Part shown: one piece after another, positions 9,942 to 53,483 of the stretch
Layout: the number at the start of each line of letters is the position of its first letter
How positions within the stretch are numbered: position 1 is the first letter of the stretch
Assembly (NCBI GenBank): GCA_938001865.1
Contig: CALLAW010000033.1
Coordinates: forward strand, 1 to 64,000
Length of the DNA stretch: 64,000 nt
Direction: 5' to 3'
DNA from: an uncultured Saprospiraceae bacterium
Lineage (GTDB): Bacteria > Bacteroidota > Bacteroidia > Chitinophagales > Saprospiraceae
The notes under the pieces: generated by a model
The model's input: only the letters and a program-made list of their open reading frames with translations
Told to the model about the DNA's origin: nothing
Database searches by the model: none
Made by a program: the position numbers and the translations under genes

Positions 9942-10065
9942 GATTTTTAAATCAGTTTTAGCTATTGAAAATATTTCTTTGCTATTAGTCATTATGAGAT
10001 AAGATTATTCGTCGATTAGATACTACCAAGCGCTAACTCTCGATAGTATCTAACCACGATATTTA

Positions 10066-19628: not shown

Positions 19629-21242
19629 TTAACCACTGAAGTAATATAATATCCCAATAATAATTATTATCAATACTACAGATGCTCCAATATCAACTAA
19701 AGTGTATGTATTCTTTGCAGAGGCTTTCTGTTCGTCTGTCAAAGTCCCAAATGTCAATCCTTCGATCTGATCCTCGTTTGGTGCTTTGGTCAACAAGCTC
19801 ACGACAATAAGGACCGCGACATAGAAACAGAAAAGATAAATACAAAGATGTGAGAAGTTTATAGATGCAAACTGAGCCATGATGCCTGTAGAGGTGTCAT
19901 CAGTGATGAGCTCCGCAGTAATTCGCAATGCAGCAATGACAATACCAACTAACAATGTCGTGATTGCACCCTGAGAGGTAGCCCTCTTCCAAAGGATACC
20001 AACTAAGAATACCGCTGTGATTGGTGGAGCTATGTATGCTTGCACACTTTGTAAGTACTGATAGAGTGTCCCCTTAGATAATGCCTCTAAGAATGGTACC
20101 CACAAGAATCCAATAATCATGATTACTACCGTTGCTATCTTACCTGTCCTGAGCAATTTATCCTCTGGAGTATCGGGATACATTTTCTTGAAAATGTCTA
20201 CGGTAAATATTGTAGAACTCGAGTTGAACACGGAGGCTAGTGAACTCATCAATGCTGCCATCAACCCTGCCGCTACAAGACCTCTCAATCCTGCAGGTAA
20301 GAGATACTGCACAAGAGCTGGGAATACTTCATCACTCTTAGAGTACTCAAGTACACCTTGCTGTGCAAGTACATAAGCGATAATTCCAGGCACTAAGAAT
20401 ATGAAAATTGGTAATATCTTAAGGTAAGCACCAAAGATGGCACCTCTCCTTCCAATCTGAATATTAGCAGCTGCGAGAGTACGTTGGACGATATATTGGT
20501 CTGTACACCAATACCAAATCCCCACAATAGTCCCACCAAATACCATCCCAGTCCAAGGAAAATCAGGATCATTAGATGGTCGCCACATATTGAAGTGATC
20601 AGGACCGGCAGCGGCACGTAACTCAGACCACCCTCCTACTGCATTGAGGCCAAGTATCGTAATCACAAAAGCACCAAATATCAAGATTACCGTCTGTATC
20701 GCTTCCGTGTAAACGACAGCTTTCATCCCTCCTAAGACGGTGTACAACCCTGTAATCCCTACAGTCAACAATGCCGATACTGTAAAATCTAGTCCAAGAA
20801 GATTAGAGATAACTATCCCTCCAGCGTAGATGGTAACAGAGACTTTCGTCAAAATGTAACCAAGTATAGAGAAGATCGACAAGAACCATCTCGATCGACT
20901 ATCAAACCGTTTCTCGAGAAACTCTGGCATCGTAAATACCCCACTCCGCATATAGAATGGGAGAAAGAACCACCCTAACAATAACACTATCCAGGCATGT
21001 AACTCATAGTGAGCTAAAGGCATATTCCCTTCTGCACCTGTGCCTGCAAGACCGACTACATGCTCTGATCCAATGTTAGAGGCAAATATGGATGCACCGA
21101 TCACAAACCATCCAACATTTCGGCCAGCAAGGAAGTAGTCTTCTGTATTCTTGCTTTCTCTCTTTATGACCCAATAGGCTACACCTAGCAGTACCACGAA
21201 GTACCCTACTAAAACTATCCAGTCTAATAATTCAAAAGTCAT
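19629..21242 (-). CDS. Sodium/sugar symporter (SSS family)
   Basis: This 537-residue membrane protein has about 14 hydrophobic helices. Early features of the sodium:solute symporter family are visible: YFLAGRNVGWFVIGASIFASNIGSEH near residues 36-60 and GGMKAVVYTEAIQ about residues 171-183. It resembles vSGLT-type sugar symporters. In this operon, directly after xylose isomerase (33-base gap), it most likely imports xylose or short xylo-sugars across the inner membrane with Na+. The substrate is inferred from position only. Confidence 0.85.
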   Translation of the reverse strand: MTFELLDWIVLVGYFVVLLGVAYWVIKRESKNTEDYFLAGRNVGWFVIGASIFASNIGSEHVVGLAGTGAEGNMPLAHYELHAWIVLLLGWFFLPFYMRSGVFTMPEFLEKRFDSRSRWFLSIFSILGYILTKVSVTIYAGGIVISNLLGLDFTVSALLTVGITGLYTVLGGMKAVVYTEAIQTVILIFGAFVITILGLNAVGGWSELRAAAGPDHFNMWRPSNDPDFPWTGMVFGGTIVGIWYWCTDQYIVQRTLAAANIQIGRRGAIFGAYLKILPIFIFLVPGIIAYVLAQQGVLEYSKSDEVFPALVQYLLPAGLRGLVAAGLMAALMSSLASVFNSSSTIFTVDIFKKMYPDTPEDKLLRTGKIATVVIMIIGFLWVPFLEALSKGTLYQYLQSVQAYIAPPITAVFLVGILWKRATSQGAITTLLVGIVIAALRITAELITDDTSTGIMAQFASINFSHLCIYLFCFYVAVLIVVSLLTKAPNEDQIEGLTFGTLTDEQKASAKNTYTLVDIGASVVLIIIIIGILYYFSG

Positions 21243-21275: not shown

Positions 21276-22595
21276 TTATATATGATCGTTGATAATCATC
21301 TCAAAGAGCTCCTGTCTACCACTGATCAACTGTGGCTCACTCCTATCGGTAGCATATCTAGCGAGATCTGCCAAGCCCATCTTACCCTCTTCAAATAACT
21401 TACCATCACCACTCTCAAACGAAGCATATCTCTCCGTACGTAATTGATTGAAATCAGATTGCTCAAGGATCGAATCTGCAATCAATAATGCTCTAGCGAA
21501 TGCATCCATCCCTCCGATATGAGCATAGAACAAATCAACTAGATCAGTTGAATTTCTTCTCGTCTTCGCATCAAAGTTGATCCCACCTCCTTGGAATCCG
21601 CCTTCTCTGAGTATGACTAACATAGCCTCTGATAGCTCATACAGATTGATCGGAAACTGGTCCGTATCCCAGCCATTCTGATAGTCACCTCGATTAGCAT
21701 CCATAGATCCTAGTGCTCCCGCATCTGCCGCGACTTGGAGCTCGTGGGCAAATGTGTGATTGGCTAATGTAGCATGATTGACCTCAATATTTATCTTATA
21801 ATCACCGAGTAGATCATATTGTCTCAAAAACCCTATTACTGTTGCACAGTCAAAATCATACTGATGCTTAGAAGGTTCCATTGGCTTCGGCTCGATAAAG
21901 AATGTCCCCTTAAACCCTTGAGCTCTTGCATAATCTTTGGCCATATGCAAAAACTTAGCCATATGCTCTTGCTCTCTCTTCATGTCTGTATTCAACAATG
22001 ACATGTAACCTTCTCTACCTCCCCAGAATACATAATTCTCTCCATTGAGTTTGATCGTAGCATCAAGTGCATTTTTGACCTGAGCTCCAGCATATGCTAC
22101 CACATCAAAGTGAGGATTAGTAGAGGCACCATTCATATATCTCTGATTGGAGAAAAGGTTGGCAGTACCCCAGAGTACTTTGACATTAGTGCTCTCCATC
22201 TTCTCCAATGCATAATCAGAGATGAGGTCTAATCGCTTTGCAGACTCGGCAAGCGTTGGCCCTTCATCGATCAAGTCAAAATCATGAAAACAGAAGTAAT
22301 CAATGCCTACCTTATCCATAAACTCGAAAGCTGCATCCATTTTGTCCTTTGCTCTTACTACTACATCATCTGACTTGTCCCAAGGATAAGACTTCGTTGC
22401 TGTACCAAATGGATCATTCCCTCCATTATTGAATGCATGCCAATATGCAACTGCAAATTTGAAATGCTCGGCCATCGTCTTACCTCTGACTTCCTTATTT
22501 GGTTGGTAATACTTGAATGCGAGGGGATTCTTTGATCCTTTACCCTCAAATGCAATCCTACCTATTCCTTTAAAATATTCTTTACCTGTTTTCAT
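21276..22595 (-). CDS. xylA: Xylose isomerase
   Basis: The 439-residue enzyme converts D-xylose to D-xylulose and is full length for the long (type II) family. The active-site residues align with those of the Escherichia coli enzyme with a shift of three: H104 and D107 in FCFHDFDL, E235 and K237 in [18 protein letters not shown]271 and H274 in [11 protein letters not shown], and the metal ligands D299, D310, D312 and D342. It is cytosolic, with no signal peptide. The gene is 94 bases downstream of the kinase-HTH gene and precedes the symporter gene, completing the intracellular arm of the locus. Confidence 0.97.
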
Positions 22596-22689: not shown

Positions 22690-24630
22690 CTACTTACTTC
22701 CTACAGAATCGAGAAAAGTAAATAGAGACACACCTTTGTTAATATTCATTTTTTTTCTGAGTCTGTATCGTTTAGTTTCAGCTCCTCTATATGATAAGCT
22801 CAGTTTCTCTGCAATCTCTTTAGTAGTAAATCTCAATTTAAGAAAATTACACATCTTCAGTTCTTCAAAACTCAGGTCAGGGTAAGTTGATTTCAGATTA
22901 TCAATATAGGGATTGTCTAATAAATCTATATGATTTGAAATCTCTTCTACTCGTTTGACATTTCTCTCCAGACCAGAAATCATTAGAGTGATATCTTTAC
23001 TATTGTAATCGGTTTTCAATGATTGTAGGCCTCTAATGACCTCATTGAGCTTTCTATCTTGCTCTTCAATGAGGAGTGATTGCTTTGCGATAAGTTTATT
23101 TTTCTCAGTGATTTCTTGAGATTCTAATTCTTTGCCTCTTGAGGTATTATTGATAATATTGTAGAGGTTGTCTTCCCAGAATCGATATGCTTGAGAGTAT
23201 TCCGCATGATTATGAGCTGGGGAGAATGTCCTGATTGGTTCTATAGATGAGAGGACACTCTCAAGTGAGTCATATCTCCCACTCCCATGACCTGATGCCA
23301 ATGCGGCCCCTACAGCTCCTGTTGTATCGTACACTTCGAGATCAATATTGAGCAGGGTTGCGATCGTTGTCGAAAACACCTCTGATCTAAACATGTTATC
23401 ATTACCAACTCTCATTTTGTTTACTTTGATACCCATCTCGATAAGGATATGGATACCGTAGACAAATGTAAATGCGATTCCTTCAAGTGCAGCTCTATAC
23501 AGATGAGCTCTTGTATGTCTATTAAACTCTACGTTGAGGATATGACTCTCTAAGTTACGATTATTGAATATTCTTTCTGCTCCATTTCCATAAGGAAACA
23601 TAAGGATACCTTCTGATCCAACTGGTACCGTAGACACCATCCTCTCCATATCCTCATAGCTCCGATTGGATCTTGCTACTTGATTTTTGAGCCAACTATA
23701 CTGGATGCCTGCCCCATTGATACAGAGGAGTACTCCTGTCCTCTTGGTATCATCTGAGTAATTGACATGTGCAAAGGCATTGACCCGAGACTCTTCATCG
23801 ACGACGATCTTATCTACTACTCCATACACTACACCCGAAGTCCCGCTGGTAGCTGCGACCTCTCCGGGTCTCAAGACATTGAGGCTTAGAGCATTATTGG
23901 GCTGATCTCCAGCTCGATAGGTAACAATTGTATTCTCTGAGAGACCAGTCTCCTTAGATGCTTCGGCAGTTAGCTTACCCGATTGCGAAAAAGTTGGCAA
24001 TACCTCAGGGATCAGATCATGTTGGATTTGATAGTGATCAAGGAGCTTAGTAGCGATTCTATTTTCTTTAAAATTCCAAAGAATCCCTTCGGATAGTCCA
24101 GAGATGGTAGTCGATATCCTACCAGTGAGCTTCATTGCAATATAATCTCCTGGTAGCATCACTTTATATATCTTTCGATATGTATCTGGCTCATTATCCT
24201 TGATCCACTTAATCTTACTTGCGGTAAAATTTCCTGGAGAATTTTGATAATTACTTAAGCAGAAATCTGGTCCCATTTGCTCGAAAGCTCGATTACCAAT
24301 AGAGACTGCTCTACTATCACACCAGATTATTGCTGGTCTCAGTACTTGTAATTCTTTATTGACTACCACTAGACCGTGCATCTGATAGCTTATCCCGATA
24401 GATTCAATAGATGCCGCATCTATGTTATTCTTCTCTAAGATTGATTTGGTACCAATGCAGAGATATCTCCACCACAGCTCTGGCTGCTGTTCTGCCCAAC
24501 CCTTCTGTCTAGACATGATTTCCATCTCTTGCTCTGGATACTTCACCACATCTATGACTGCTCGAGTTTTGGCATCGACCAATGCTGTCTTGACCGAAGA
24601 ACTTCCTATATCGTAACCTAGTAAATACAT
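22690..24630 (-). CDS. Xylulokinase (FGGY) fused to a coiled coil and LuxR-type helix-turn-helix
   Basis: Residues 1-495 are a complete FGGY sugar kinase of xylulokinase type, phosphorylating xylulose to xylulose 5-phosphate. Visible are the N-terminal phosphate loop GYDIGSSSVKTALV, the QMHG substrate motif (83-86), the catalytic Asp in RAGDQPNNAL (D242), the TSGTSGV phosphate motif and the adenosine-side motif at about 407-412. XylB proteins normally end here (about 484-500 residues). This frame continues without a break for 150 residues: a charged coiled coil (about 500-570), then a C-terminal block with YPDLSFEELKMCNFLKL, TTKEIAEKLSLSYRGAE and RYRLRKKMNI. That block is the LuxR/NarL-like HTH found at the end of Bacteroidota sensor regulators. 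The gene follows the GH3 gene by 16 bases. Kinase call firm; HTH call fairly firm; dual role is inference. Confidence 0.9.
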   Translation of the reverse strand: MYLLGYDIGSSSVKTALVDAKTRAVIDVVKYPEQEMEIMSRQKGWAEQQPELWWRYLCIGTKSILEKNNIDAASIESIGISYQMHGLVVVNKELQVLRPAIIWCDSRAVSIGNRAFEQMGPDFCLSNYQNSPGNFTASKIKWIKDNEPDTYRKIYKVMLPGDYIAMKLTGRISTTISGLSEGILWNFKENRIATKLLDHYQIQHDLIPEVLPTFSQSGKLTAEASKETGLSENTIVTYRAGDQPNNALSLNVLRPGEVAATSGTSGVVYGVVDKIVVDEESRVNAFAHVNYSDDTKRTGVLLCINGAGIQYSWLKNQVARSNRSYEDMERMVSTVPVGSEGILMFPYGNGAERIFNNRNLESHILNVEFNRHTRAHLYRAALEGIAFTFVYGIHILIEMGIKVNKMRVGNDNMFRSEVFSTTIATLLNIDLEVYDTTGAVGAALASGHGSGRYDSLESVLSSIEPIRTFSPAHNHAEYSQAYRFWEDNLYNIINNTSRGKELESQEITEKNKLIAKQSLLIEEQDRKLNEVIRGLQSLKTDYNSKDITLMISGLERNVKRVEEISNHIDLLDNPYIDNLKSTYPDLSFEELKMCNFLKLRFTTKEIAEKLSLSYRGAETKRYRLRKKMNINKGVSLFTFLDSVGSK

Positions 24631-24646: not shown

Positions 24647-26827
24647 CTATTTTACTTTAATCAAATAAGACTCTCTCTGGTCAGAACCAAGTACTGACGA
24701 TCTCTCAATCGGCAATGAGGACGATACCGTCACATTGTACTCTCCAGGTATGAGATGCAAATTACCTTGATCGTCGTATTGACTAAATGCTTTATCGTCC
24801 AATTCAATTTCAACTTTTTCTGTCGAATTCGCTTTTATCGAAATCCGCTTGAATGCTTTCAAAGCTTGATGAGGGTCTGTACTCGACTTCTGAGTTTTGG
24901 AGACATAGACTTGTACTACTTCTTGTGCATCTCTATCACTCTTATTGACGACATCAAGAGTCAGAGTGAGAGATTTACCTTCCTTCATAGACTTAGATGA
25001 AGACTTGAGATTCTGATATTCAAGGTCAGAGTAGCTCAATCCGAATCCAAATGGATAAAGAGGTTCGACATCAAGATACCGATAAGTCCTGCCCTTCATA
25101 TTGTAATCTTCATAAGGTGGAAGATCATTGATAGATTTGACAAAGGTTACGGGCAGTTTCCCCGAAGGATTTACATTTCCAAATAGGATATCCCCCAAAG
25201 CGTTACCTCCTTGCTCACCTGGATACCATGCGTAGAGGATTGCATCAGCCAGTTCATGAATCTCTGGGATAGATATAGCACTTCCTCCGGTGATCACAAC
25301 TATGAGTTTTTTTGCCTTTGTACGGAGTAATTTGAGATACTCTATCTGATGAGGTGGGAGTGTGATATAATCTCTATCTCCTGCTGATGGTGAGGAGATG
25401 GCTTCACCTTCTTCACCTTCGAGAAGCTGAGTTATCCCCATACAAGCTATGGTGACATCTGCGACTTCTGCCTCCTCCGAATACCAATCCATCGGATTAA
25501 CATTCTCTCTATCAAGTAGACTTCCCTGCACATAACGTATCGCTGTGTGGGATGATACAGATGAAGTGATGCCCTCCAATAATGTCCTCAGATCATCACT
25601 TACCCCATAGTAGTTAGCAAGGAGAGCTTGAGCATCTGCTGCTGTTGGTCCTGTGACGAATAGATTCCTCATATTGGGATCGAGAGGAAGGGTGTTATCT
25701 TTATTTTTGAGTAGGACGATAGACTTGGATGCCGCTTCATATGTGAGATTGATGTGTTCTTCACTTCGGACTTTTTCTATCCCTATACGATCGTAAGCTG
25801 AGACATCACTATCAAATAATCCAAGTTTGAATCGTGTTGGTAATAACTGCTTGAGATTGGCATCTAAAGTTGCCTCGTCAGTCAGACCAGACTCTATTGA
25901 CTCGATTAGACTTGGATAAGTGTTGCCACAGTTCAAGTTACAGCCTGCATTGAGAGCTTTAGCTGCAGCGTCTTTCCGATCTTTACTGATCAGGTGTCCT
26001 TCAAAGAAATCTTGAATTGCCCAACAGTCAGAGACGTAATAACCATCAAATCCCCACTTCTTTCTGAGTACCTCGTCCATTAAGTAAGAGTGGGCACAGC
26101 ACGGTTCTCCATTAGTTCTATTATATGCTCCCATTACGCCTTCTACGTTAGCCTCAGTTACGAGTGCCTCGAAAGCAGGGAGGTAGGTATTCCATAGGTC
26201 GTGCCTTGAGACTACTGCATCGAAGGTATGTCTGAGTTTTTCTGGACCACTATGAACGGCAAAATGTTTAGCCATAGCGGCAACCTTGAGTTGTTCGCCA
26301 TCACCCTGTAATCCATTGACAAAAGAAACTCCTAGTCTACTGATAAGATGTGGATCTTCACCATAAGTCTCTTGACCTCTTCCCCATCGAGGATCTCTGA
26401 ATAGATTAACATTGGGTGACCAATAAGTCAACCCGGCATATCTATCCATGTAACCAGTCTTCTGATTGACGTTGAACTTGGCTCTTCCTTCAATTGCTAT
26501 TGCCTCTCCGATACGAAACATGAGATCGTCGTCAAATGCTGCTGCCATACCAATCGCCTGAGGAAACACAGTAGCTTTACCGTTACGTGCTATCCCATGT
26601 AGGCATTCATTCCACCAGTTATATGCTGGGATATTGAGACGTGGAATTGCCGGAGACTCAAACATCAATTGTTGGACTTTCTCCTCTAGAGTCATTCTAC
26701 TCACTAGATCATCGACTCGCTTCTCTATTGAAAGACTTGAATCTTCAAATGGAAACTTTTCCTCTTGTGCTACTACGTTTGAAACCATAAATACTATTAT
26801 AGTCAAGAATAAAAAAAATTTGTTCAT
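24647..26827 (-). CDS. GH3 beta-xylosidase/beta-glucosidase
   Basis: The 726-residue protein has a Sec signal peptide ending at VVA about residue 20 and is presumably periplasmic, because no lipobox or T9SS tail is present. The GH3 N-terminal barrel shows YNWWNECLHGIARNG, the KHFAVHSGPE region and the nucleophile Asp in GYYVSDCWAI (D267). The C-terminal alpha/beta sandwich and a fibronectin III-like domain with YPFGFGLSYS follow. The WWNECLHGIAR signature is common in bacterial GH3 beta-xylosidases. In this operon it most likely trims xylo-oligosaccharides to xylose after SusC import. Beta-glucosidase activity on products of the GH9 enzyme is possible. Confidence 0.9.
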   Translation of the reverse strand: MNKFFLFLTIIVFMVSNVVAQEEKFPFEDSSLSIEKRVDDLVSRMTLEEKVQQLMFESPAIPRLNIPAYNWWNECLHGIARNGKATVFPQAIGMAAAFDDDLMFRIGEAIAIEGRAKFNVNQKTGYMDRYAGLTYWSPNVNLFRDPRWGRGQETYGEDPHLISRLGVSFVNGLQGDGEQLKVAAMAKHFAVHSGPEKLRHTFDAVVSRHDLWNTYLPAFEALVTEANVEGVMGAYNRTNGEPCCAHSYLMDEVLRKKWGFDGYYVSDCWAIQDFFEGHLISKDRKDAAAKALNAGCNLNCGNTYPSLIESIESGLTDEATLDANLKQLLPTRFKLGLFDSDVSAYDRIGIEKVRSEEHINLTYEAASKSIVLLKNKDNTLPLDPNMRNLFVTGPTAADAQALLANYYGVSDDLRTLLEGITSSVSSHTAIRYVQGSLLDRENVNPMDWYSEEAEVADVTIACMGITQLLEGEEGEAISSPSAGDRDYITLPPHQIEYLKLLRTKAKKLIVVITGGSAISIPEIHELADAILYAWYPGEQGGNALGDILFGNVNPSGKLPVTFVKSINDLPPYEDYNMKGRTYRYLDVEPLYPFGFGLSYSDLEYQNLKSSSKSMKEGKSLTLTLDVVNKSDRDAQEVVQVYVSKTQKSSTDPHQALKAFKRISIKANSTEKVEIELDDKAFSQYDDQGNLHLIPGEYNVTVSSSLPIERSSVLGSDQRESYLIKVK

Positions 26828-26834: not shown

Positions 26835-28958
26835 TTACTTTTGCATTACAATTTTCTTGGTCACCTGTAGACCATCCACAGATATGACAAGATAATACAG
26901 CCCTGAGGTGACTGACAGCTCTAAATCTTCACCACTTCGTACTCCTCTATATGTCTCAATTAATCTCCGGGAATCATCAAAGAGTTGGATATCAACTCCA
27001 TCATAATGAGTGGGAAACTTTACATTGAGCTTATTCTCAGTGACAGGATTTGGAAAGAAGGTGAATGATTCTTTATCAACCTCTTCCAATGCTGTAATCA
27101 CTGGTAACTGTATATTGATGATTGTATCTGAGAGTAGATACAATTGTTGGGTTATCGACACATCTCCTTTGGAGACGGTTACTTCGTGCTTCCCTTTGAA
27201 AGCTCTTATTGTACTCTTACCTGACTGATCGGATAATTGAGTTTCACTTGTCCACCATTCGTCATATACTTTCTGGATAAATACTTCACCAGATGGCTTC
27301 AACGACCAATCTAGATTATACATAGGTGCATTGTCTTTCCAATGGTTACCATCCCAAAATCCCCACATAATGAATGCATCCATCCCAGGGTGGCTGAAGG
27401 TAAGAGTCAAGAGATCTCGCATATAATCTGCCTGAGTATCTTCATCAATATTGCCATTGATATCGTACTCCGTTACTTTCATTCGCTTACCATATCGCTG
27501 ATAGAATTCATTAAATATTTGCTCCACTTGTGGTATTCCGTTGGGAATAGAGCCGATATGACATTGAAATCCAATCCCATCAAAGGGTACATTGGCATCT
27601 CTTAGCTCGTCGAGGAATGTCTTGTATCTCGCCACTAGGTTAGCCGATCCTGATGAGATAGCCATATAATCATTGATATATAACTCTAGCCCTGGATCAT
27701 ACTCTTTTACTCTCTCAAATATTTGATTATACAATTTTCTACCATTCGCAAGATTGGAGTCATTATTATAAGCATTCTCCAATGTTCTATTCGTTGTAAT
27801 TTCATTCAACACATCCCAGTCTCTGACATAGTCACGGAGCTCAGGGTGATTGATCATTTCATCTATTCGACTTTCGATTCTATTCGTGATGTAAGGCAGA
27901 TTGTCCAAGTTATTGTTAATATCATCTGGCAACCAAGCACTCCCGGGCCAGATCAAATTGTGTCCCCTCATCGTGACTCCTTGCTCTGTCAACCACTTGA
28001 ATGCTGCTACCGTTTCGTCAGGTGTGCCGAGCCATTGTTGCTCCCATGCTCTCCACTTAAGCGAATTTTCATTTACACATTCGTTGAATCCATGTCCTTT
28101 CCCATCTAAGTCTAATACTTTGCTGACATAGGTCTCGTCGTAGCAATTATTACCTGGAAATCGGCAAGTCACTAGAGCCGAGCCAAACCCAAAATCATGC
28201 TGTTGCATCTCGACAGAGACGTGAGCATCTTCTATAGGATTACCAGACTCGTCATCAACATTGACAGTAATGTTACTCTTCCTTAATGACTCTATCCGAG
28301 ATGCTGCCAAGCCACGCCAAGGTGCATCTAACTCTCTTCCATCATAGTTGAATGAAGAGTAGGACGATGGCAAATCATCTACCGAATAGTTATCCTTAAA
28401 GTTGATTGCATTTAACCCTGCAATATCTATTGTCTGCTGCAATGAAGCGAGATGAAATCCAGCCTGTAAACTCCCTATATCAAAACTCTCAGAAGCTCTA
28501 AAAGCAACATAGTATTGAGTCCAATCAGGAGTAAAACTGAGGGGCAGATAAAACTCTTTTTCGTAATCCACACCGTTCTCTGCGAACACAAATACTTGGG
28601 ATGGACCAGAAGTCTGTTTTGCCCAAAAGCCTAACAGAATCAAATCATCTTTTGCAATACTGGTTGTATTTCGTAACGACAATCCTGTATCCCATGCATT
28701 TTGACTTTCAGTGATCACTTCGATATGCTTACTTATCGTAAAGTCCATAGCATCGACGCTTTGATTCTCTACAGACAGAGAGCCATACTCGAATATTGAA
28801 CCAAATAGCTCAGGTTCTGTATCTGGAAATACAAAAACTCCATCTTCCAAACCATATGAGTCACTCAGATTCTGAAGTAAACTCATATGGTATGCATCTT
28901 GTGAATAAAGCCACAAGGGAAGGAAGAGGAAAGCAAGAACTTTAATGTTCATTAACAA
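26835..28958 (-). CDS. Secreted GH10 endo-beta-1,4-xylanase with T9SS tail
   Basis: The 707-residue product has a signal peptide (about 1-20) and an N-terminal CBM4/9-like beta-sandwich (about 25-190). The GH10 barrel spans about 225-570, with MRGHNLIWPGS, the acid/base Glu in WDVLNE (E386) and the nucleophile Glu in MKVTEYD (E497). GH10 enzymes cleave the xylan backbone. The tail (FFPNPVTENK, ending TKKIVMQK) is a T9SS sorting domain, so the enzyme should be secreted or attached at the cell surface. It sits between the five-module binding protein (10-base gap) and the GH3 gene (7-base gap). A second ATG at codon 3 is an equally good start. Confidence 0.95.
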   Translation of the reverse strand: MLMNIKVLAFLFLPLWLYSQDAYHMSLLQNLSDSYGLEDGVFVFPDTEPELFGSIFEYGSLSVENQSVDAMDFTISKHIEVITESQNAWDTGLSLRNTTSIAKDDLILLGFWAKQTSGPSQVFVFAENGVDYEKEFYLPLSFTPDWTQYYVAFRASESFDIGSLQAGFHLASLQQTIDIAGLNAINFKDNYSVDDLPSSYSSFNYDGRELDAPWRGLAASRIESLRKSNITVNVDDESGNPIEDAHVSVEMQQHDFGFGSALVTCRFPGNNCYDETYVSKVLDLDGKGHGFNECVNENSLKWRAWEQQWLGTPDETVAAFKWLTEQGVTMRGHNLIWPGSAWLPDDINNNLDNLPYITNRIESRIDEMINHPELRDYVRDWDVLNEITTNRTLENAYNNDSNLANGRKLYNQIFERVKEYDPGLELYINDYMAISSGSANLVARYKTFLDELRDANVPFDGIGFQCHIGSIPNGIPQVEQIFNEFYQRYGKRMKVTEYDINGNIDEDTQADYMRDLLTLTFSHPGMDAFIMWGFWDGNHWKDNAPMYNLDWSLKPSGEVFIQKVYDEWWTSETQLSDQSGKSTIRAFKGKHEVTVSKGDVSITQQLYLLSDTIINIQLPVITALEEVDKESFTFFPNPVTENKLNVKFPTHYDGVDIQLFDDSRRLIETYRGVRSGEDLELSVTSGLYYLVISVDGLQVTKKIVMQK

Positions 28959-28968: not shown

Positions 28969-31932
28969 CTACTTGACGATTAGTTTATTAACTGATGCAG
29001 TAGTATTATCTAACTGTAAATTGACTAAGTAGAATCCTGCATCCAGTGCTGAGATATCTACAGAGTGTGTATTGAGACCTGCTTGTGTTGTACCAATAGA
29101 GACATTCTGGACCACCTTACCTGAGATATCTAAGATAGAGATATTCCCATTTGCAGATTTCTGGCTATCAAATTCTAGGACAAACTTATCGCTAGTTGGA
29201 TTAGGATAGATCTGAGCAGAATTCAACTTTGCATGATCAATCACATCAAGTATTTCAATTGGAGAACCAAAAGAAATCCAGTCGATGTGTACCTCTCCAG
29301 AGAATGCCCCGATACCCGGATTTAAGTACAAGAGGATATTCTGAAGTCGTTCGCCATCTACCGGACATGGTCCAGCTTCGCAAGCAGTACCACCAAATCC
29401 TCCATCACTATAATTATTAGTGAAGTCAAACTCGTAGACTGCAAAATCTTCAGTGAGTCCTTGAGTCAATCCAGCAAGTGATGTCAAGAAACTTTGATTA
29501 TCCTGTACATCAACTCTGAGCGGCAATCCATCCACAGTTGATCTTGCTTTGATGTAGAGCTTATTCTCGTTATTGACAGCATTCACAATTACTGAATCCA
29601 TTCCTTCATGCATTTCATAGACAATTGGGCTAAATGCTCCAGATGTACCGTCTCCTACTATTTTTAACTGACCCTCCTCTGCAAGCGTTACAAGTCCATC
29701 ATTATCTGAGATAAAATCTAATAGATTATCGTCCATTGAGTCAGCATAATCATCAATCCCTACAGGACCATTATCTACAACAGGAGTCTCATCTATTGGT
29801 CTGATAGTAGATATCCAATCTATGGTCATCGTACCTCCATATCCCCCAGTAGTTGGGTCAATATAGAAGAGCATATTCTGAACAGTCATCCCATCTACAT
29901 CACAAGGTCCCATATCACATGCTGTACCGCCATAACCACCGTCGGTATATGTCCCCGTGTAATCAAATTCTAGGATAGCATATTCTTCGTTTATCGTAGC
30001 AGTTGTTGCTGGTTCTGTAGTTACGAATCCATCAGCATCTACAAGATCGATACGTAGAGTTGAATTTGGTACGGTTGACTTTGCCTTGACATAAAGTTTG
30101 TTATTAGAGGTCATATCCACTGTTAGTGCTGATAAGTCTTCTGTATTGTGAGTGATATAATTAAATGCAGCAAATGCACCACCAGTACCATCTCCAGTCA
30201 GTATCAACTCTCCTCCTGTCTCTTCAACAGTAAATCCATCAACATCAGAAAACTGATCTTTGACATCATTATCAAACTGATCTTCATACCTCAATACATC
30301 TTCGCCAAGAGGAGCACCGAATGAGATATAGTCGATCTCTATGCATCCTGCAAACATTCCATCCGCTGGATTGGGATAGAGAAGTACTGTACTGATAGCA
30401 GTTGGATCCACTGGACAAGGGGCATCATCAGACTCACACGCTGTCCCTCCATATCCTGCATCGACATACTGTCCTGTAAAGTCAAGCTCCAATGTCGTAT
30501 AATCACTCTCGATCAGACGAGTGATCGATGGCAATGTAGTTGTAAATCCTGATGTGTCGATAAGATCTACTCTCAATAGTGTGTTAGCCGCGTCAGACTT
30601 AGCTCTTAGGTACACCTTATTGTTGCCACTGGCATCTACAAATGAGCCTTCGCCAGTACCCATATCGTGGATAGAGTATGCGATAGACGCAAATGGAGAA
30701 TCAAATCCAGATCCAGTGATTTTGAGATTTGAAGCATCAACTGAGAGTTCAAATGCTGCCGTAGTATTTACAAATTCACTGCTCTCTGAAAAGTGTTCGC
30801 CATAGACTAATAATCCTTCAGGGTTTTCTATTTCTTCCAATGCACTACCGATAGAGATATAATCAATCTCTACCTCACCAACAAATGCTCCAGCACCTGG
30901 ATTGATGAATACAATCATATTAGCTATCCTATCTCCGTCGACTGGACAAGGCGCTTGATCTGATGTACATCCTGTACCTCCGAATCCTAAGTCAGTATAC
31001 GTACCTGAAAAACTATACTCATAAGTCGTCCACTCATCTGTAATTGGCTTAGTAATACTTGCTCCAGTAGTTGCCATATCGTTGATATCTTGGAGATCAA
31101 GTCTGACTGTGGTCCCAGGTGTATTTGTTTTCATTCTGATAAACACCTTATCATTTCCTTCTGTAACAGGGACATCTATTGTGTCTAAAGTGGTTTGATT
31201 GTAGAACAACATATTTACTGGTTCCCAAAGTCCTCCAGTACCGTCACCAGTGATTACCCAATTAGAGTTAGATACTGAATTAACTAATCCTGTACCGGAT
31301 CCATTCATATACTCGAGTGCTACTCCATCATCAAAGTGGTCTTGCCATACGTCAGATTCTGGACCAACATTTGGCGCAGACCCTACCGCGATAAAGTCCA
31401 TTACGATCGATCCTCCAAAGGCACCTTGGCCCGGATTGACATAGAAGTTAAACTCTACAATCTGAGTTGGGTCAACTGGGCATGGTGCATCTGCTGACAT
31501 ACAGCTCGTACCGCCAAAGCCACCATCACTAAGGTTACCGTTGAAGTCAAACTCAAATACTGTATAATCGCTGACAAGTGTCTTCGTCAGTCCAGCTAAA
31601 GTGGTTGCGAATCCATCAGCATCCTTGACGTCCAACCTAAGTTGTGTACCAAGATTACTTGCTTTTGCCCTGAGAAAAATTTTATTATTCTCAGAGATAT
31701 CGATGGTAGCGACTGTACCATCATCATTATTTGGTGTCAATACGAATAATTCGAAGGCACCTGTGCTTCCGTCTCCTGTAATAGTCCATTCGCCGTCTTG
31801 TTCTGCGCTACTATATCCATTACCGAGGGCCACATTGTTTTCTATACCATCATCAAAGTTATCAATATAGACTTGACCCGAAAGTGGTCCAAGTATCATT
31901 AATAAGAGTAAAATTGTAAAGATGTGTTTCAT
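28969..31932 (-). CDS. Secreted protein of five tandem carbohydrate-binding-like modules with T9SS tail
   Basis: The 987-residue protein has a signal peptide (1-19). Five homologous modules of about 165 residues follow, at about 20-186, 194-364, 375-541, 546-710 and 724-892, and a T9SS sorting domain (IYPNPTSDK) covers 905-987. Each module begins with an F-D-aromatic stretch, has ITGDGTGGAF-like and NKLYVKAKS-like strands, a LRLDVKDADGF-like strand, a two-Cys signature GGTxC...PCPVD (GPCDVD in the fourth), and ends in IDWISFGSP-like sequence. The same module fronts the GH9 enzyme. No catalytic domain is present. From position between the glycan-binding lipoprotein and the xylanase, a polysaccharide-binding role at the cell surface is likely. 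I do not recognise the module as a named CBM family. Confidence 0.8.
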   Translation of the reverse strand: MKHIFTILLLLMILGPLSGQVYIDNFDDGIENNVALGNGYSSAEQDGEWTITGDGSTGAFELFVLTPNNDDGTVATIDISENNKIFLRAKASNLGTQLRLDVKDADGFATTLAGLTKTLVSDYTVFEFDFNGNLSDGGFGGTSCMSADAPCPVDPTQIVEFNFYVNPGQGAFGGSIVMDFIAVGSAPNVGPESDVWQDHFDDGVALEYMNGSGTGLVNSVSNSNWVITGDGTGGLWEPVNMLFYNQTTLDTIDVPVTEGNDKVFIRMKTNTPGTTVRLDLQDINDMATTGASITKPITDEWTTYEYSFSGTYTDLGFGGTGCTSDQAPCPVDGDRIANMIVFINPGAGAFVGEVEIDYISIGSALEEIENPEGLLVYGEHFSESSEFVNTTAAFELSVDASNLKITGSGFDSPFASIAYSIHDMGTGEGSFVDASGNNKVYLRAKSDAANTLLRVDLIDTSGFTTTLPSITRLIESDYTTLELDFTGQYVDAGYGGTACESDDAPCPVDPTAISTVLLYPNPADGMFAGCIEIDYISFGAPLGEDVLRYEDQFDNDVKDQFSDVDGFTVEETGGELILTGDGTGGAFAAFNYITHNTEDLSALTVDMTSNNKLYVKAKSTVPNSTLRIDLVDADGFVTTEPATTATINEEYAILEFDYTGTYTDGGYGGTACDMGPCDVDGMTVQNMLFYIDPTTGGYGGTMTIDWISTIRPIDETPVVDNGPVGIDDYADSMDDNLLDFISDNDGLVTLAEEGQLKIVGDGTSGAFSPIVYEMHEGMDSVIVNAVNNENKLYIKARSTVDGLPLRVDVQDNQSFLTSLAGLTQGLTEDFAVYEFDFTNNYSDGGFGGTACEAGPCPVDGERLQNILLYLNPGIGAFSGEVHIDWISFGSPIEILDVIDHAKLNSAQIYPNPTSDKFVLEFDSQKSANGNISILDISGKVVQNVSIGTTQAGLNTHSVDISALDAGFYLVNLQLDNTTASVNKLIVK
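29257..31875 (-). repeat. Five-fold tandem repeat of the GGTxC-PCPVD module
   Basis: The repeat is internal to the binding-like gene and has a period of about 520-540 bases. It is visible at protein level through the recurring GGTxC...PCPVD and IDxIS motifs. Divergence between copies suggests old duplication; modules 4 and 5 share a shortened Cys signature (CDMGPC, CEAGPC). Confidence 0.85.
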
Positions 31933-31947: not shown

Positions 31948-33057
31948 TTATTGGATTTGTATGAATTTTAGATTATCAATGTTGACTTCCATTTTTTGAC
32001 TTGAACTGAGTTCATTAAATAAGTGCAACTTGATTGTTCTTAATTTTTGTGGATCTGGTGTTGCTCCATTGATATCGGAGAATCTATTGAGTGGAATACT
32101 TACATTATTCCATCCTGACCAGTTAACAGCGACCGTCTCAGTAAAGTCATTCGTCGATCCGTCTCGTTCGGCTAGAATCAGGATGAGGTGAGTATCGTCT
32201 TGACCGTTACTATTAATATCCAACTGCAAGAATGTGTTATTGATATCAGAAGAGATCTCAAATGTATTGAACACATCTACATCTCCCGAGTTGGACTCAG
32301 CACCTCCTACCCATGACGACCCTTGGTCAGTACCGGAGAGTTTCAAAAAATTCCCATCTATCGGGTCTGGAGACTCATTATTCACTGCATTGGAGGCATT
32401 CTGATCTATACCTCCGTAGAAGAGCCACTTATCGGTCTCTGATCTGACCCCATTACCATCGAAGTCATTGACTAACAACTCTTGAGTAGAAAAGAATAAT
32501 TCTGGAGTCAAAGAGAATCCACCATTTGCTTTTACTTTGATCCTTCCTTTCTGCACATTTGGCGGGACCACCACTACTAATGAGTCTTCCTGATGATATA
32601 CGATATCACCTGGGATAGAATCAAAGAATAGTACCTCAAGGGGTTCAAAGAAGTTTTTTCCTGTAATCCAGACATGCTCTCCTTCATTACCAAACTTAGG
32701 ACCGAAATCAAATACAGAAGGCGCATCTAAGGTGACCCTAAATGGAATTTCGACCTGCCCATGCTCAGATTCTATTTTGATCATATTGTCTCCAACGATT
32801 GCATCATTTGGCACTCGGAATAAGAGGACATCTTCCTTCCCAAATGACGGATTGAAATCAGCGGCTACCTCTTCATCGAAATCAATCGCAACAAGATCAA
32901 CGAAGTTTTGACCATGGACTGTAATCAAGGTCTGAGCAGGTCCTGTTTCTGGACCGTACATGTCGACGGCTGGAGCTCCTACCCTAGTACAAGAGCCTAA
33001 GCCTATGATGATGAGTACAGCTAGACCTAACTGAGTTATTGTAGTTATTACTTTCAT
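31948..33057 (-). CDS. IPT/TIG-domain glycan-binding surface lipoprotein
   Basis: I start at the ATG at 33057 (MKVITTITQLG), one base after the stop of susD. It gives a lipoprotein signal with lipobox LGSC at residues 20-23. The longer frame starting inside susD adds 32 residues of no signal character. The 369-residue protein has two IPT/TIG immunoglobulin-like domains (GPETGPAQTLITVHGQNF and GPKFGNEGEHVWITGKNFF). A C-terminal beta-rich domain follows (DFDGNG, WVGGAES, NVSIPLNRF). This architecture is typical of surface glycan-binding proteins encoded after susCD in polysaccharide utilisation loci. Binding of xylan at the outer surface is inferred from the locus. Confidence 0.85.
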   Translation of the reverse strand: MKVITTITQLGLAVLIIIGLGSCTRVGAPAVDMYGPETGPAQTLITVHGQNFVDLVAIDFDEEVAADFNPSFGKEDVLLFRVPNDAIVGDNMIKIESEHGQVEIPFRVTLDAPSVFDFGPKFGNEGEHVWITGKNFFEPLEVLFFDSIPGDIVYHQEDSLVVVVPPNVQKGRIKVKANGGFSLTPELFFSTQELLVNDFDGNGVRSETDKWLFYGGIDQNASNAVNNESPDPIDGNFLKLSGTDQGSSWVGGAESNSGDVDVFNTFEISSDINNTFLQLDINSNGQDDTHLILILAERDGSTNDFTETVAVNWSGWNNVSIPLNRFSDINGATPDPQKLRTIKLHLFNELSSSQKMEVNIDNLKFIQIQ

Positions 33058-33058
33058 A

Positions 33059-34540
33059 TTAATAGCCAACATTTTGAGTGAGATTAGGATTGATTGATAT
33101 CTCCGCTGCTGGTATTGGGAAGAGCACACTATGGTCTTGGAATTGCTTTCCATGGACCTGCATGATTTCTTTGACTTTGCCAGACCTCAGTAAATCAAAC
33201 CATCTCTGATTTTCGAATGCAAACTCTGCTCTTCGTTCGTCAAATAGCATATCGATAGTGACATTACCTACTTCAGAAAGACCAGCTCGAGTCCTTACTG
33301 CATTGAAAGATTCTATAACATCTGGTGTGACTGATATCCCGCCACTCAACCTACATGAAGCCTCTACCAATGTCAGCAGCACATCGGCATATCTGATTGC
33401 ATGTTGGTTCTGTGGAGTACTCATAAAGCAGACATCTGGACCACCACCTATGACATATTTCTTGATATTTGATTGCCCTCTTGATGCTCCAGTTGCAGGA
33501 TAGATATATCCACCAGTCTCTGCATTAATCATTGGATACTCATCACCAGGGGTCATGATAGTATGATATTTCCTTAGGTCATCATTAGAGTAGACGTCTA
33601 ATATGGTAGTTGTAGGATTATCTATCGAGGGAGCTGTGGGGATTTGAGAGCCCCATCCATCAGTATTGCCTGTGATCGCTTGACCCCATGGCGCAAAGAA
33701 TGCTTGCAGAGCATTCCCAGTGTTACCAGGACCGCAACCCACATATTGGATTTGCCAGATAGACTCACTATTATTATCACTCTTATCTCTCAGCCAATTG
33801 TTAGCAAAGTCTTGCTCAAGACTGTAGAGTCCAGAGGCAATCACATTTCTACATAGCTCCATACTCTCGTCATATCTGCCAATTGTAACAAACACCTTAG
33901 CAAGAATCGCATTAGCGGCGTGACTTGTCACTCTTCCGTTCTCCGACGCAGCCCTTGTTAGAGGCAACCATATTATTGCTTTCTGCAAGTCGTCTATGAT
34001 GAAATCGTAGACCTCATCTACAGAGTTACGAGGAACATTGAGATCACTAGAGATTGTCGGTACTTCATCTATGATAGGTACTGCTCCAAATATCCTTACC
34101 AAGTCAAAGTAGGCATAAGCACGTAGGAATCTTGCTTCACCTAGGATGGCATTTTTTTGATCTTCGTCCATGTCTATTGGTGAGACAAATGTGAGTATCT
34201 GATTGGTTAATGTGACGAGCCTGTAATGTTCGGTCCAGTACTCAAGTACTGGTACATTATCTGCACTTGTCGTAAAGTTATCTATTGGAGAGAAATCAGG
34301 ATCGTTACCACCTGGTGTCGTATTATCCGATGGTATTTCTTCGATCATCCAAGACTTTCCTTTCCAATTGATCGCTTGGATGGCACTATACATAGACTTA
34401 GCAGCAAGGTCTGCTTCCTCAGCATTGGTATAGAATGTCGCAGTAGATATTTCATCCAAGGGTTGACGATCCAAAAAATCGCTACATCCAAGTGATAAGA
34501 TGACTATTCCAAAGAGTGGTAATAAATATATTTTTTTCAT
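33059..34540 (-). CDS. susD-like: SusD/RagB family glycan-binding lipoprotein
   Basis: The 493-residue protein has a lipoprotein signal (ILSLGC) followed by SDFLDRQPLDEIS, the usual SusD N-terminus. Helical TPR-like segments follow (ARFLRAYAYFDLVRIFG, NAILAKVFVTIGRYDESM), and the C-terminal RRAEFAFENQRWFDLLRSG block is nearly diagnostic of the family. SusD proteins cap the SusC barrel and deliver oligosaccharides to it. It lies 10 bases after susC and 1 base before the IPT lipoprotein gene. Confidence 0.96.
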   Translation of the reverse strand: MKKIYLLPLFGIVILSLGCSDFLDRQPLDEISTATFYTNAEEADLAAKSMYSAIQAINWKGKSWMIEEIPSDNTTPGGNDPDFSPIDNFTTSADNVPVLEYWTEHYRLVTLTNQILTFVSPIDMDEDQKNAILGEARFLRAYAYFDLVRIFGAVPIIDEVPTISSDLNVPRNSVDEVYDFIIDDLQKAIIWLPLTRAASENGRVTSHAANAILAKVFVTIGRYDESMELCRNVIASGLYSLEQDFANNWLRDKSDNNSESIWQIQYVGCGPGNTGNALQAFFAPWGQAITGNTDGWGSQIPTAPSIDNPTTTILDVYSNDDLRKYHTIMTPGDEYPMINAETGGYIYPATGASRGQSNIKKYVIGGGPDVCFMSTPQNQHAIRYADVLLTLVEASCRLSGGISVTPDVIESFNAVRTRAGLSEVGNVTIDMLFDERRAEFAFENQRWFDLLRSGKVKEIMQVHGKQFQDHSVLFPIPAAEISINPNLTQNVGY

Positions 34541-34550: not shown

Positions 34551-37500
34551 TTAAAAGTTCACATTAGCACCTAGAGTAAATGATCTTGCAATCGGGAATC
34601 GACCGTTATCTACTCCATTAATGAGAGGATTTTGATTGAATGAGCCGATCTCTGGGTCATAACCAGAATAGCCAGTGACAGTCCACAGATTCTGCCCACT
34701 GATATAGAATCTTAGACTCCCTATCCTTATCTTATCTGACAAGGTAGAAGGCAAGGAGTAGCCTAGAGAAATATTCTGTAATCGGATAAAACTTCCTGAT
34801 TCCACAAATCTATCTGATACTCTTCTATTGATATTCGGATCTATTCCAGTTGCTCTTGGTTGTGTGCCATCAGGATGGGTTGGCTGCCATCTGTCTTGGA
34901 CGACGATAGATTGATTATGCCAAGCTCCAGTACCAGCAATATCACGCTTGAGCATGTTGTAGACTTCATTCCCAAATACTCCTCTAAAGAATACTGAAAA
35001 ATCCCAATTCCCTACATTGACGTCATTGATCATATTGACTGTATAGTCAGGATGAGGACTTCCGATATAAGTTCTGTCTTCGTCATCGATAACGCCGTCT
35101 TCATTCAGATCGGCGAAGATCAGGTCACCAGCTCTAGTCCCTGCTTCTTGGAATGCATGACTAGCGACTTGATCAGCATCTCTGAAGATGCCAATTACCT
35201 TATGGCCAAAATACTGACCGATAGGCCTCCCCTCCTCTGTCCGTGTTATTGGTTGGCCTTGGATCACACCTGAGATAAATCCATTTTCACCAAGATCAAT
35301 TACTTCATTTCTATTGATCGATAGGTTTGCGGAAGTCTTCCAGACGAGTTTACCTACAGTGTTACGTGTATTTACCGATAGTTCGATTCCAGTATTCTTA
35401 ATTTCTCCAATATTTACGAATGGAGGAGCTAGACTTCCAGCTGTTGCAGGTAAGATAGACTCTAATAGCATATCACTAGAAGTTTTTTGGTAGGCATCTA
35501 TGACTACTTCGACTCTATTATCCCAGAGTCCAAGATCCAATCCTACATTGGATTGGATAGAGCTTTCCCACTTGACTCCTGGATTAGCAATGTTAGCTGG
35601 AGCAAATGCTGTAGTACGGATATCTCCTACTACCACGTCTGTTGGACGTAACTTACTTAAGAATGAGTAAAGTCCTATCTCTTGATTCCCTACTGCACCA
35701 TATCCAAGACGCAACTTAAGGTTGTATATCGAACTGATATTCTTGATAAATTGCTCATTGGACAACCTCCAAGCAAATGCAACAGATGGGAAGTATCCAA
35801 ACTTATTCTCAGGTCCAAATCTTGATGATCCATCTGCTCTGAAGGTAGCAGTCAGGAGATATCTCTCGTCAAAGTTATAATTCAATCTTCCGAAGTAAGA
35901 GAGCAAAGCCCAATGTCCAGCTCCACCTTCGACATTCTGAGTCGCTGCGTCACCCAGTACGAGCTCACTCAAGTTGTTAGTTGGGAGGTTCTCCCTTACG
36001 GCAAATAACCAATTGTAAGTCCCTTCCTGAGCTTCGAATCCTGATAAGAGTACAAATTTATTGCGAGGATTGATTGCATGATTAAGCGTGAGTAGGTGCT
36101 TGTTATTCCAGTACGTTGTATTCCCTGGATTCCTAGTCACTTTTGAGTTTTTACTTTGAGTCCCTCGATCAAATGAAGGTTCAAATCTATCATGATTAGA
36201 GTAGAGTAAGTCTGTTGCAAACTCTGTCCGATACTTCAACCAAGGTGTAATATCGACCTCACTGTAGAGACTTCCTAGCAATCTGAACTTTGCATTGACA
36301 TCTTCGATCTCTATGGCATTAGCCAGTGGATTGTCAAATGTCAGTACGATATTCTCTCCTGTAGGCGCTACCCCAAAACTCCCATCTAGAGTCCTATCTG
36401 GTACGATTGGTGGCGTCAGTAATGCTGTATAGATGACACCTTTATCATTGTCATTAAATACAATATTCTCTCTTGTCTTCGCAGTGAGGATATTCATTCC
36501 CACTCTGAATTTTCCGATATTTTGATTGATATTGAGCTTGGCCGAATATCTTTTGAAATTAGACCCTTGCACGATTCCATCCTTATTATGTGCTCCTATT
36601 GAGGCAGAAAACCGAGTATCCTTATTCCCACCAGAGACTGATACTTGATGATTCTGCATACCGGCATTGCGAAAGATCACATCTTGCCAGTCAGTACCTT
36701 TACCTAGTAATTCTGGATTTTCAAATTCTTCGATACTCCCCACTTCGACTTCAGAGATATATTGGGCATAGTTAGAGAGATCCATCATTGGTATCTTCCT
36801 ATAGAGACTTTGACTACCAGTATAGAAGTCATAAGAGACTTTGGTCTTCCCTGCTGTACCTGTTTTGGTGGTGATGATTACGACTCCGTTAGCTGCTCTC
36901 GATCCATAGATTGCTGAGGCAGATGCATCCTTTAATATTTCGATTGACTCGATATCATTAGGATTGATGGTAGTAAGGGCATTACTATTCTGTCCTTGAC
37001 CGTCTCTGAGGTTAGATGACCCTGCATTATCACTAGAGATCGGGATACCATCTACGACATAGAGTGGCTCAGTCGATAGTGTCGATCCAGAACCTCTAAT
37101 CTGTATCGACATCGCTCCACCTGGAGATCCACTGTTCTGAGTGATATATACACCAGCACTTCTTCCTTGCAATGCTTGCTCCAACCCAGTAGAGGGGAGT
37201 TGCTTCAACTCTTTGACTCCGATACTTGATATTGCTCCTGTGAGATCGCTTTTTTTCTGCGAACCGTATCCAATCACTACTACCTCTTCTAATACTTTGG
37301 CATCCGATCCTAAGTAGATCGTCATCTCAGTATTAGTGGCTGCTACTTGTTTATCTGTATATCCTATATAACTGATAAGGAGTGTTGCTCCAGTTGTGAT
37401 TGTAAATTCGAACTGACCATCTATATCAGTGATCGTTCCATTGTCAGTGTCTAACTCTAAGACACTTGCTCCGATGAGAGGCTCACTACTTTCTTGATCA

Positions 37501-37683: not shown

Positions 37684-37705
37684 AAAGTTGGTGTATGTCA
37701 ACTTT
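37684..37705. promoter_or_regulatory. Inverted repeat in the susC leader
   Basis: AAAGTTG (37684-37690) and CAACTTT (37699-37705) form a perfect 7-bp inverted repeat around an 8-base centre, just downstream of the -7 box. It could be an operator or an RNA hairpin in the leader. There is no T tract, so it is not a terminator. Confidence 0.3.
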
Positions 37706-37711
37706 ATTTAT

Positions 37712-37719
37712 CAAAAATA
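37712..37719 (-). promoter_or_regulatory. Putative -7 box of the xylan operon (TATTTTTG)
   Basis: TATTTTTG on the minus strand matches the Bacteroidota -7 consensus TAnnTTTG and lies 71 bases before the susC ATG. A TTTG is present upstream (37745-37748) but 25 bases away, longer than the usual 19-21. The weak -33 spacing is compatible with a promoter needing an activator. Confidence 0.45.
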
Positions 37720-37778
37720 GTGTAAAAAGGTCTGCTGGACGATTCAAATGGCTCAGAAAATTCCCGACAATTACACTT

Positions 37779-37814
37779 CGTCAAACATACGTCAATACTT
37801 CGACTTCACGTCAA
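37779..37814 (-). promoter_or_regulatory. Three direct TTGACG repeats upstream of the xylan operon
   Basis: On the plus strand CGTCAA occurs at 37779-37784, 37790-37795 and 37809-37814; on the coding strand these are TTGACG. The last two share the longer core ACGTCAAT. Spacings are 11 and 19 bases, and the cluster lies 60-95 bases upstream of the -7 box, a usual place for activator binding. Which protein binds, if any, is unknown; the kinase-HTH fusion in the operon is one candidate. Confidence 0.4.
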
Positions 37815-37843
37815 TGATTGCAACTCTCTGATATTTATTGATT

Positions 37844-53171: not shown

Positions 53172-53173
53172 TT

Positions 53174-53482: not shown

Positions 53483-53483
53483 G

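Follow-up and report, generated by a model that had tools for sequence, protein, structure and literature searches.

Can an enzyme of xylose catabolism regulate the xylan locus in which it is encoded? This question is raised by a gene at positions 22690-24630 of a 64,000 nt stretch of contig CALLAW010000033.1 (hereafter the window) from an uncultured Saprospiraceae bacterium, in which an FGGY-type xylulokinase is continued by a coiled coil and a LuxR-type helix-turn-helix (HTH) domain. The first-pass annotation of the window proposed that this kinase-HTH fusion acts on its own locus, and our comparative analysis supports the proposal at the level of sequence, since a conserved repeat is located next to the fused gene as well as ahead of xylose and xylan genes. 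We consider it likely that the fused protein is an active-enzyme one-component regulator which binds direct repeats and controls xylan/xylose loci; regulation of its own locus in particular is a well-supported prediction. The gene is composed as follows:

22690..24630, minus strand: fused gene encoding xylulokinase, coiled coil and LuxR/GerE HTH; 646 aa, single open frame without internal stop
23896..24627, minus strand: FGGY_N domain, residues 2-245, Pfam E = 3.5e-48, containing D7, Q83-M84-H85 and D242
23293..23856, minus strand: FGGY_C domain, residues 259-446, Pfam E = 2.1e-9
23005..23208, minus strand: long helix or coiled-coil linker, residues 475-542 in the AlphaFold (AF2) model, a fast-evolving region
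22702..22884, minus strand: LuxR/GerE HTH domain, approximately residues 583-643, according to Pfam, AF2, a model of the module and Foldseek
22750..22791, minus strand: recognition helix (..RGAETKRYRLRKK), residues 614-627, helix taken from the AF2 model

The uninterrupted frame of 646 codons described in the first-pass annotation is present with its motifs (QMHG at residues 83-86, D242 and TSGTSG at residues 261-266), and Pfam matched the three families that the annotation had named, FGGY_N, FGGY_C and GerE. No ROK domain was matched by Pfam at E <= 0.1; FGGY was matched instead. The best NCBIfam match was XylB (TIGR01312) with 307.8 bits, which does not reach the cut-off of 380.25. This is a trait of the subfamily, because four unfused relatives likewise score below the cut-off (279-313). 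In the alignment to E. coli XylB (2itm), D7, M84-H85 and D242 of the fused protein correspond to D6, M77-H78 and D233, which we take to be catalytic (Asp) and xylulose-binding (Met-His) residues. D7, M84, H85 and D242 are invariant in the alignment of 32 fused proteins (see below), all of which matched FGGY_N and FGGY_C at E <= 0.01; a decay of catalytic residues in the fused copies was thus rejected. Judged from these motifs and domains, the kinase part of the fused protein is a full xylulokinase whose active site is intact.

The C-terminal extension spans approximately residues 490 to 646. In the full-length AF2 model the kinase is followed by the helix at 475-542 and then by shorter helices, the final four at 588-643. 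When the C-terminal module was modelled alone, the HTH reached a predicted local distance difference test (pLDDT) score of 87-92, and a Foldseek search with this model returned LuxR/NarL-type proteins (FixJ, VpsT, EvgA, RcsB, EL222 and StyR) in all ten top rows with a probability of 0.98-1.00, but with E values of at least 0.03; the HTH domains of DosR and GerE appeared lower in the list. The GerE match (PF00196) covers residues 602-636 with E = 2.4e-5 and 24.3 bits (gathering cut-off, 23.5). In the recognition helix, R615, G616, E618, T619, R621 and R623 are invariant in the 32 fused sequences. The ratio of nonsynonymous to synonymous substitution rates (dN/dS) of the HTH was finite in 4 of 11 pairs (0.008, 0.08, 0.128 and 0.152), and in these pairs with finite HTH dS the HTH is under purifying selection. 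The kinase ratio was finite in two pairs (0.044 and 0.048), in which the HTH gave 0.008 and 0.08. The linker was the least conserved part in all 11 pairs.

How widespread the fusion is was examined in several genome sets. A first set of 60 relatives included six with a full fused match, among them the window's genome (G000). Among 398 genomes of the window's family, for each of which at most three candidates were scored, 31 encode a full-length fused protein, defined as a match reaching profile position 655 or beyond (fragments may sit among the unlisted matches), in addition to a fragment in G288 and a match cut by the contig end in G132; a close XylB of any kind was present in 228 of them at E <= 1e-80. 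In 395 phylum-wide genomes the fusion was found only in the window's genome and any close XylB in 122. At E <= 1e-265, which admits near-full-length fusions only, 395 genomes of the class yielded the window's genome and G985, and 13 genomes of the family of G985, another family, yielded G985 and G1146. A contig collection of six relatives includes the fused loci of Fulvivirga marina and Saprospiraceae UBA7687, the latter being identical to G280. The whole architecture is present in 32 loci (31 family genomes and Fulvivirga). As these come from separate assemblies, the assembly or frame artefact that the first-pass annotation had considered was ruled out.

In three trees of the kinase domain, all fused proteins formed one clade, with SH-aLRT support of 95, 98 and 100. 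The first tree started with 71 unfused rows, and four doubles were removed. The second, built under a simpler model, was extended by 18 high-scoring unfused rows (20 such loci were taken, of which G146 and G220 gave no usable row) and left out 13 unfused rows of the first tree; the third, also under a simpler model, included G985 and G1146 and left out 10 of those rows. The sole "unfused" row within the fused clade was G132, cut by the contig end, and the extension is present in 32 of the 33 clade members. The single clade in all three trees indicates one origin of the fusion and does not support repeated independent fusions. It is very improbable that the extension is inert, or serves oligomerization only, in a protein that is otherwise an ordinary kinase. 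The fused gene does share an operon with xylA, as an ordinary xylB would; however, the recognition residues are invariant, purifying selection acts on the HTH but the linker diverges, every clade member has the extension except the one at a contig end, and a predicted operator accompanies the fusion, as described below. In G068 (L131), a stand-alone 177 aa protein with a coil and a GerE HTH, which resembles the free C-terminal module, is encoded just downstream of the fused gene (8015-8545, minus strand).

What sequence might the HTH recognize? The motif search used the gaps on either side of the fused gene, provided that they measured at least 60 bp upstream or at least 120 bp downstream, which gave 42 regions from 25 loci. 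G280 and six loci of the group to which the window belongs (G000, G001, G369, G330, G229 and G347, hereafter the window group) contributed no gap region. A Gibbs sampler given no prior motif returned the direct repeat TTGACGTA-N3-TTGACGTA (TGACGTA-N4-TGACGTA) with an 11 bp period, which holds 19.6 bits per site compared with 10.2-10.3 in three dinucleotide-shuffled controls. A palindromic LuxR-type operator was rejected, as it reached 12.9 and 13.6 bits (controls 7.9-8.7) against 19.6 and 20.5 bits for the direct repeat (controls 10.2-10.9). For each fused gene, 750 bp were searched (300 bp upstream and 450 bp downstream), and 25 of the 32 loci had a repeat there with two mismatches or fewer. 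Among random regions from the same loci, which at 300 bp each were the shorter target, 4 of 1131 had one. In the seven loci without an adjacent repeat, the fused gene lies inside an operon, 9-39 bp behind another gene; the available sequence reached the operon head in five of them, and a clear repeat was present there in four. Across 63 genomes, 15 exact repeats were counted in the 31 fused genomes and one in the 32 others, the latter inside a coding frame. Two loci that had played no part in deriving the motif also carry the repeat: an exact copy at the fused stop codon, before SusC, in G985, and a copy with two mismatches in the gap 247 bp before xylB in G1146. The conserved direct repeat is probably an operator tied to the fusion.

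In the window, the fused gene belongs to a polysaccharide utilization locus (PUL) of glycoside hydrolase (GH) and transport genes, at the head of which the repeat is located:

37777..37794, minus strand: predicted operator TGACGTA-TGTT-TGACGAA, approximately 137 bp before the SusC start, one mismatch of 14
37796..37813, minus strand: second, weaker repeat element with three mismatches, adjoining the first
34551..37640, minus strand: SusC-like TonB receptor, first gene of the PUL
33059..34540, minus strand: SusD-like protein
31948..33153, minus strand: surface glycan-binding protein (SGBP; IPT/TIG, SGBP_B_XBD)
28969..31932, minus strand: cargo protein of the type IX secretion system (T9SS), 987 aa, function unassigned by Pfam, its cluster found in five loci
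26835..28958, minus strand: GH10 xylanase
24647..26827, minus strand: GH3 glycosidase, ending 19 bp before the fused gene
21276..22595, minus strand: xylose isomerase, TIGR02630 above cut-off
19629..21242, minus strand: sodium:solute symporter (SSF)

The order on the minus strand is SusC, SusD, glycan-binding protein, 987 aa T9SS protein, GH10, GH3, fused gene, xylose isomerase, symporter and GH9. One repeat with at most one mismatch was seen in the window, for an expectation of 0.03 per window, and both repeat elements fall within 37700-37820, the stretch that the first-pass annotation had put forward for binding. G229 and G347 carry a one-mismatch repeat at the same place, 143 bp before SusC in each. 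In G280, two repeats with two mismatches each are spaced 32 bp apart; SusC follows them after approximately 400 bp and the fused gene after 12 kb. The contigs of G001 and G330 end before the operon head.

The LuxR, AraC/hybrid two-component system (HTCS), extracytoplasmic function (ECF) sigma and anti-sigma families were all absent from the 34 other window proteins scanned with Pfam, a set that includes the whole PUL but not all open reading frames (ORFs) of the window. The observation in the first-pass annotation that no other regulator is nearby holds to this extent; it has no discriminating value, since the unfused relatives examined in the window's family also lack an adjacent NrtR. Fused and unfused loci examined did not differ in an adjacent NrtR-type regulator, which among the unfused loci only L034 has, and a complementarity of the fusion with such a regulator was dropped for want of any difference in the window's family.

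The PUL of G985 (L251, 9359-19998) is nearly identical in order to that of the window (glycan-binding protein, 987-type protein, GH10, GH3 and fused gene), which suggests a transfer of the locus, given that G985 belongs to another family. The 987 aa T9SS protein has no catalytic Pfam match. In loci of the window group its gene is flanked by those for the glycan-binding protein and GH10, and the distant G985 locus holds a weaker counterpart; the protein is a candidate for a xylan enzyme of a new type. Elsewhere in the window, a 1363 aa T9SS protein (5901-9992, minus strand) matches cohesin (1.6e-7) and, weakly, dockerin, and is adjoined by a 1690 aa paralogue at 10066-15138, with GH9 at 17079. 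A HipA-like kinase (53484-54734, plus strand) follows a 109 aa ORF, a candidate HipB (span 53153-54734); a related pair is also located near the fused operon in G347.

If the repeat is an operator, which genes would it serve? Among the usable genomes, a repeat was found before unfused xylB in 11 of 20 that have the fusion, as against 1 of 31 that have unfused genes only (Fisher p = 3.4e-5, with no correction for relatedness among the genomes). Upstream rows were usable in 20 of 22 cases from fused genomes and in 46 of 63 from unfused-only ones; the test used 31 of these 46 (window's family and OFTM152), and the other 15 had no repeat. Five of the 11 xylB repeats coincide with the site located behind the fused gene (G032, G189, G314, G077 and Fulvivirga), and six are separate. 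Distant repeats were found before a GH26-GH3 operon in G185 and before xylB on other contigs in G355, G023 and G176. In the target operons, a weaker repeat ending in TGnAGTA follows the main repeat by 32-33 bp in 22 of 28 sites, and TTTG at offset 86-88 occurs 23 times in the 28 sites. A centring of the repeat near -41 of a TAnnTTTG box was dropped: the exact box at offsets 37-38 was present in 3 of 28 sites, TTTG at 86-88 being common.

The repeat ahead of the fused gene itself is mostly within approximately 40 bp of the start codon. From its placement at the targets and at its own start codon, we propose with moderate confidence that the fused protein activates target operons from upstream sites and represses its own promoter. 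Many loci have repeats tight against the gene both upstream and downstream, which could also suggest marks of a mobile cassette rather than operators. We find this hardly credible, as the same sequence recurs across loci and also before distant xylB, GH26-GH3 and PUL promoters, with the same companions, a second element after 32-33 bp and TTTG at offset 86-88.

Is the fused protein the one that reads the repeat? Over 141 residues, its module shares 37% identity with the final part of a 965 aa Y_Y_Y protein from the same genome (G000:C101, L173, 3670-6567, minus strand), which has a related HTH and a TGATGTA-type direct repeat just before its start; the G001 orthologue has the same type of repeat before its start. 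We found 20 further long proteins ending in a related HTH, for which, unlike the Pfam-assigned G000:C101, class membership was judged by length and HTH. Fourteen of these score at least 10/12 on TGAnGTA repeats near the start, compared with 63 of 600 random windows, a control that is raised because the windows were drawn partly from loci chosen for holding the motif. Module relatives, fused genes included, are present in all 24 genomes searched. Alternatively, the repeat might be bound by a different regulator, such as a membrane sensor whose HTH is related, and the fusion would then simply belong to that regulon; the similar repeats of the long proteins, the wide occurrence of module relatives and the presence of the repeat without a fusion in G242 would fit. 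However, unfused-only genomes including G004, G009, G018, G019 and G033 have such long proteins, yet only G242 of 31 usable ones has the xylB repeat. Moreover, at the recognition-helix position of E-T in the fusion, all six proteins with a clear TGATGTA half-site have E-I. We regard this explanation as improbable. The helix difference gives a lead that residue 619 may set the middle letters of the half-site; G005:C107 runs counter to a simple code, having an E-T helix but TGTAGTA/TGAAGTA repeats.

Several observations weigh against the fused protein as the regulator of these loci. Its GerE score hardly exceeds the cut-off, and 8 of the 32 fused proteins are unmatched at E <= 0.01 (24 are matched). 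The full-length AF2 model is moderate only (pLDDT 68, from a 6-row alignment). In 10 of 11 pairs the kinase is better conserved than the HTH. Genome-wide, repeats with at most one mismatch occur in 26 of the 31 fused genomes and in 13 of the 32 others, with totals of 53 against 39 in a reversed control for the former and 18 against 32 for the latter. The enrichment concerns place, not number: 38 of the 53 belong to fused genes or the heads of their operons, to xylB or to GH26. The PUL head of G369 has no repeat at three mismatches or fewer though the fused gene is present; it holds a degenerate pair (four mismatches each, 33 bp apart, 143 bp before SusC) of a kind found in none of 400 region shuffles, which we counted as a miss. 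Conversely, the unfused G242 (G242:C13, L183, ~4083) carries a one-mismatch repeat directly before xylB, positioned as before fused genes; we conjecture that it is a relic of a lost fused gene. Furthermore, 55 of 59 genomes encode NrtR-like proteins, to whose family B. theta XylR belongs, so that xylose control may be shared. Finally, a LacI gene is located near the fused gene in G280 and G314, which likewise deprives the absence of other regulators of discriminating value.

Does the fused protein still serve as an enzyme? A second close XylB match exists in 23 of 31 fused genomes, and an unfused xylB directly follows the fused gene in 7 of 32 loci (G032, G035, G189, G314, G077, G105 and Fulvivirga); these two findings suggest that the kinase was duplicated and one copy then gained the HTH module. 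Where a second, unfused XylB exists, the fused copy might be a sensor only, binding xylulose and ATP while the other copy catalyses. Outside the window group, the fused gene is often followed by a gap of 129-515 bp and then an operon, which is the position of a regulator. We consider a sensor-only role rather unlikely, given that the catalytic residues are invariant in all 32 fused proteins. In the window group, each genome gave one close XylB match, which implies that the fused protein must catalyse if the pathway runs and nothing was missed. No other close XylB was found in the window's genome, where the matches at E <= 0.001 were the fusion and one Y_Y_Y-type long protein only; a remote xylulose-using FGGY kinase may lie beyond this threshold. 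Because it is the only close xylulokinase found there, the fused protein of the window's genome probably also does catalysis, and this together with the invariant catalytic residues makes a pure sensor unlikely in that genome.

Taken as an active-enzyme regulator, the fused protein would work as follows. The cytoplasmic xylulokinase domain would be the catalyst and likely the sensor, the coiled coil would relay the signal from kinase to HTH, and the LuxR-type HTH would bind the direct repeats. In the window it would control the PUL (SusC, SusD, SGBP, GH10, GH3, fused gene, xylA and symporter) from the predicted operator at 37777-37813, and in most relatives its targets would be its own gene and the next xylB, xylA, SusCD or GH3 operon. 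Binding of the HTH to the predicted operator is strongly indicated by the comparative data; that the signal is xylulose or its turnover with ATP, and that the protein dimerizes via the coil, are proposals of moderate strength. A more far-reaching version has, in our estimate, an even chance: the fusions would be a new class of transcription factor in which an active FGGY pentulose kinase reads substrate or flux by domain closure, the coil relays this to a Y_Y_Y-type output module, and the module reads 11 bp repeats (TGnnGTA) whose middle letters follow residue 619. The kinase duplicate would have become the regulator in most genomes, with one protein doing both jobs in the window's lineage.

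Compared with XylB xylulokinases (FGGY, TIGR01312; PDB 2itm and 5vm1), the fused protein shares the fold, the active-site residues and the link to xylA; it differs in approximately 150 extra residues (coil and HTH), and its score lies below the TIGR01312 cut-off like those of the four unfused relatives. With the Y_Y_Y/SusR-like sensors of Bacteroidota it shares the related C-terminal module, but where these have a periplasmic sensor and a membrane span, it has a cytoplasmic enzyme: the only Pfam or model content N-terminal to the coil was the kinase. ROK repressors (NagC, Mlc and XylR) also join a sugar-kinase fold of the same superfamily to an HTH; theirs is an N-terminal winged HTH, and they are often catalytically dead, whereas the fused protein is FGGY, not ROK, with a C-terminal LuxR-type HTH. 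PutA, BirA, NadR and archaeal RbkR are active enzymes that control their own pathway through their own DNA-binding domain, but their enzymes and DNA-binding folds differ from those of the fused protein. NrtR-family XylR has a Nudix-type fold. We know of no bifunctional enzyme-regulator composed of an FGGY kinase and a LuxR HTH.

In a B. theta study (PMC3878776), xylose control is assigned to the NrtR-type XylR (BT0791). The same study predicts direct-repeat binding for SusR-like regulators, whose sites would be centred 67 or 77 bp apart, compared with the 11 bp period at fused loci; the likeness of the HTH is to that of the Y_Y_Y protein. XylR is built on an enzyme-like (Nudix-type) domain, as is the fused protein; its fold is unrelated to that of the fused protein, and NrtR is not beside xylAB in the examined loci of the window's family. 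The first-pass annotation did not know the architecture as a standard one; in agreement, no description of an FGGY kinase-HTH fusion was found among the titles and abstract openings that searches of an open-access library listed, and the consulted part of a review of hemicellulase regulation (PMC10766802) holds nothing of this kind. An enzyme with its own DNA-binding domain is already known; an FGGY kinase on a Y_Y_Y-type output module is, to our knowledge, a new form of it.

The fusion hints at a code by which a large family of Bacteroidota sensors, so far little studied, may recognize DNA, and it offers a possible compact xylulose-responsive part for engineering. For the organisms themselves, the xylan loci of this group gain a candidate regulator and a predicted operator where no adjacent NrtR, HTCS or sigma factor was observed. 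The output module of a membrane sensor is here re-used on a metabolic enzyme, and with this module on a catabolic kinase, the kinase itself could set the expression of its pathway.

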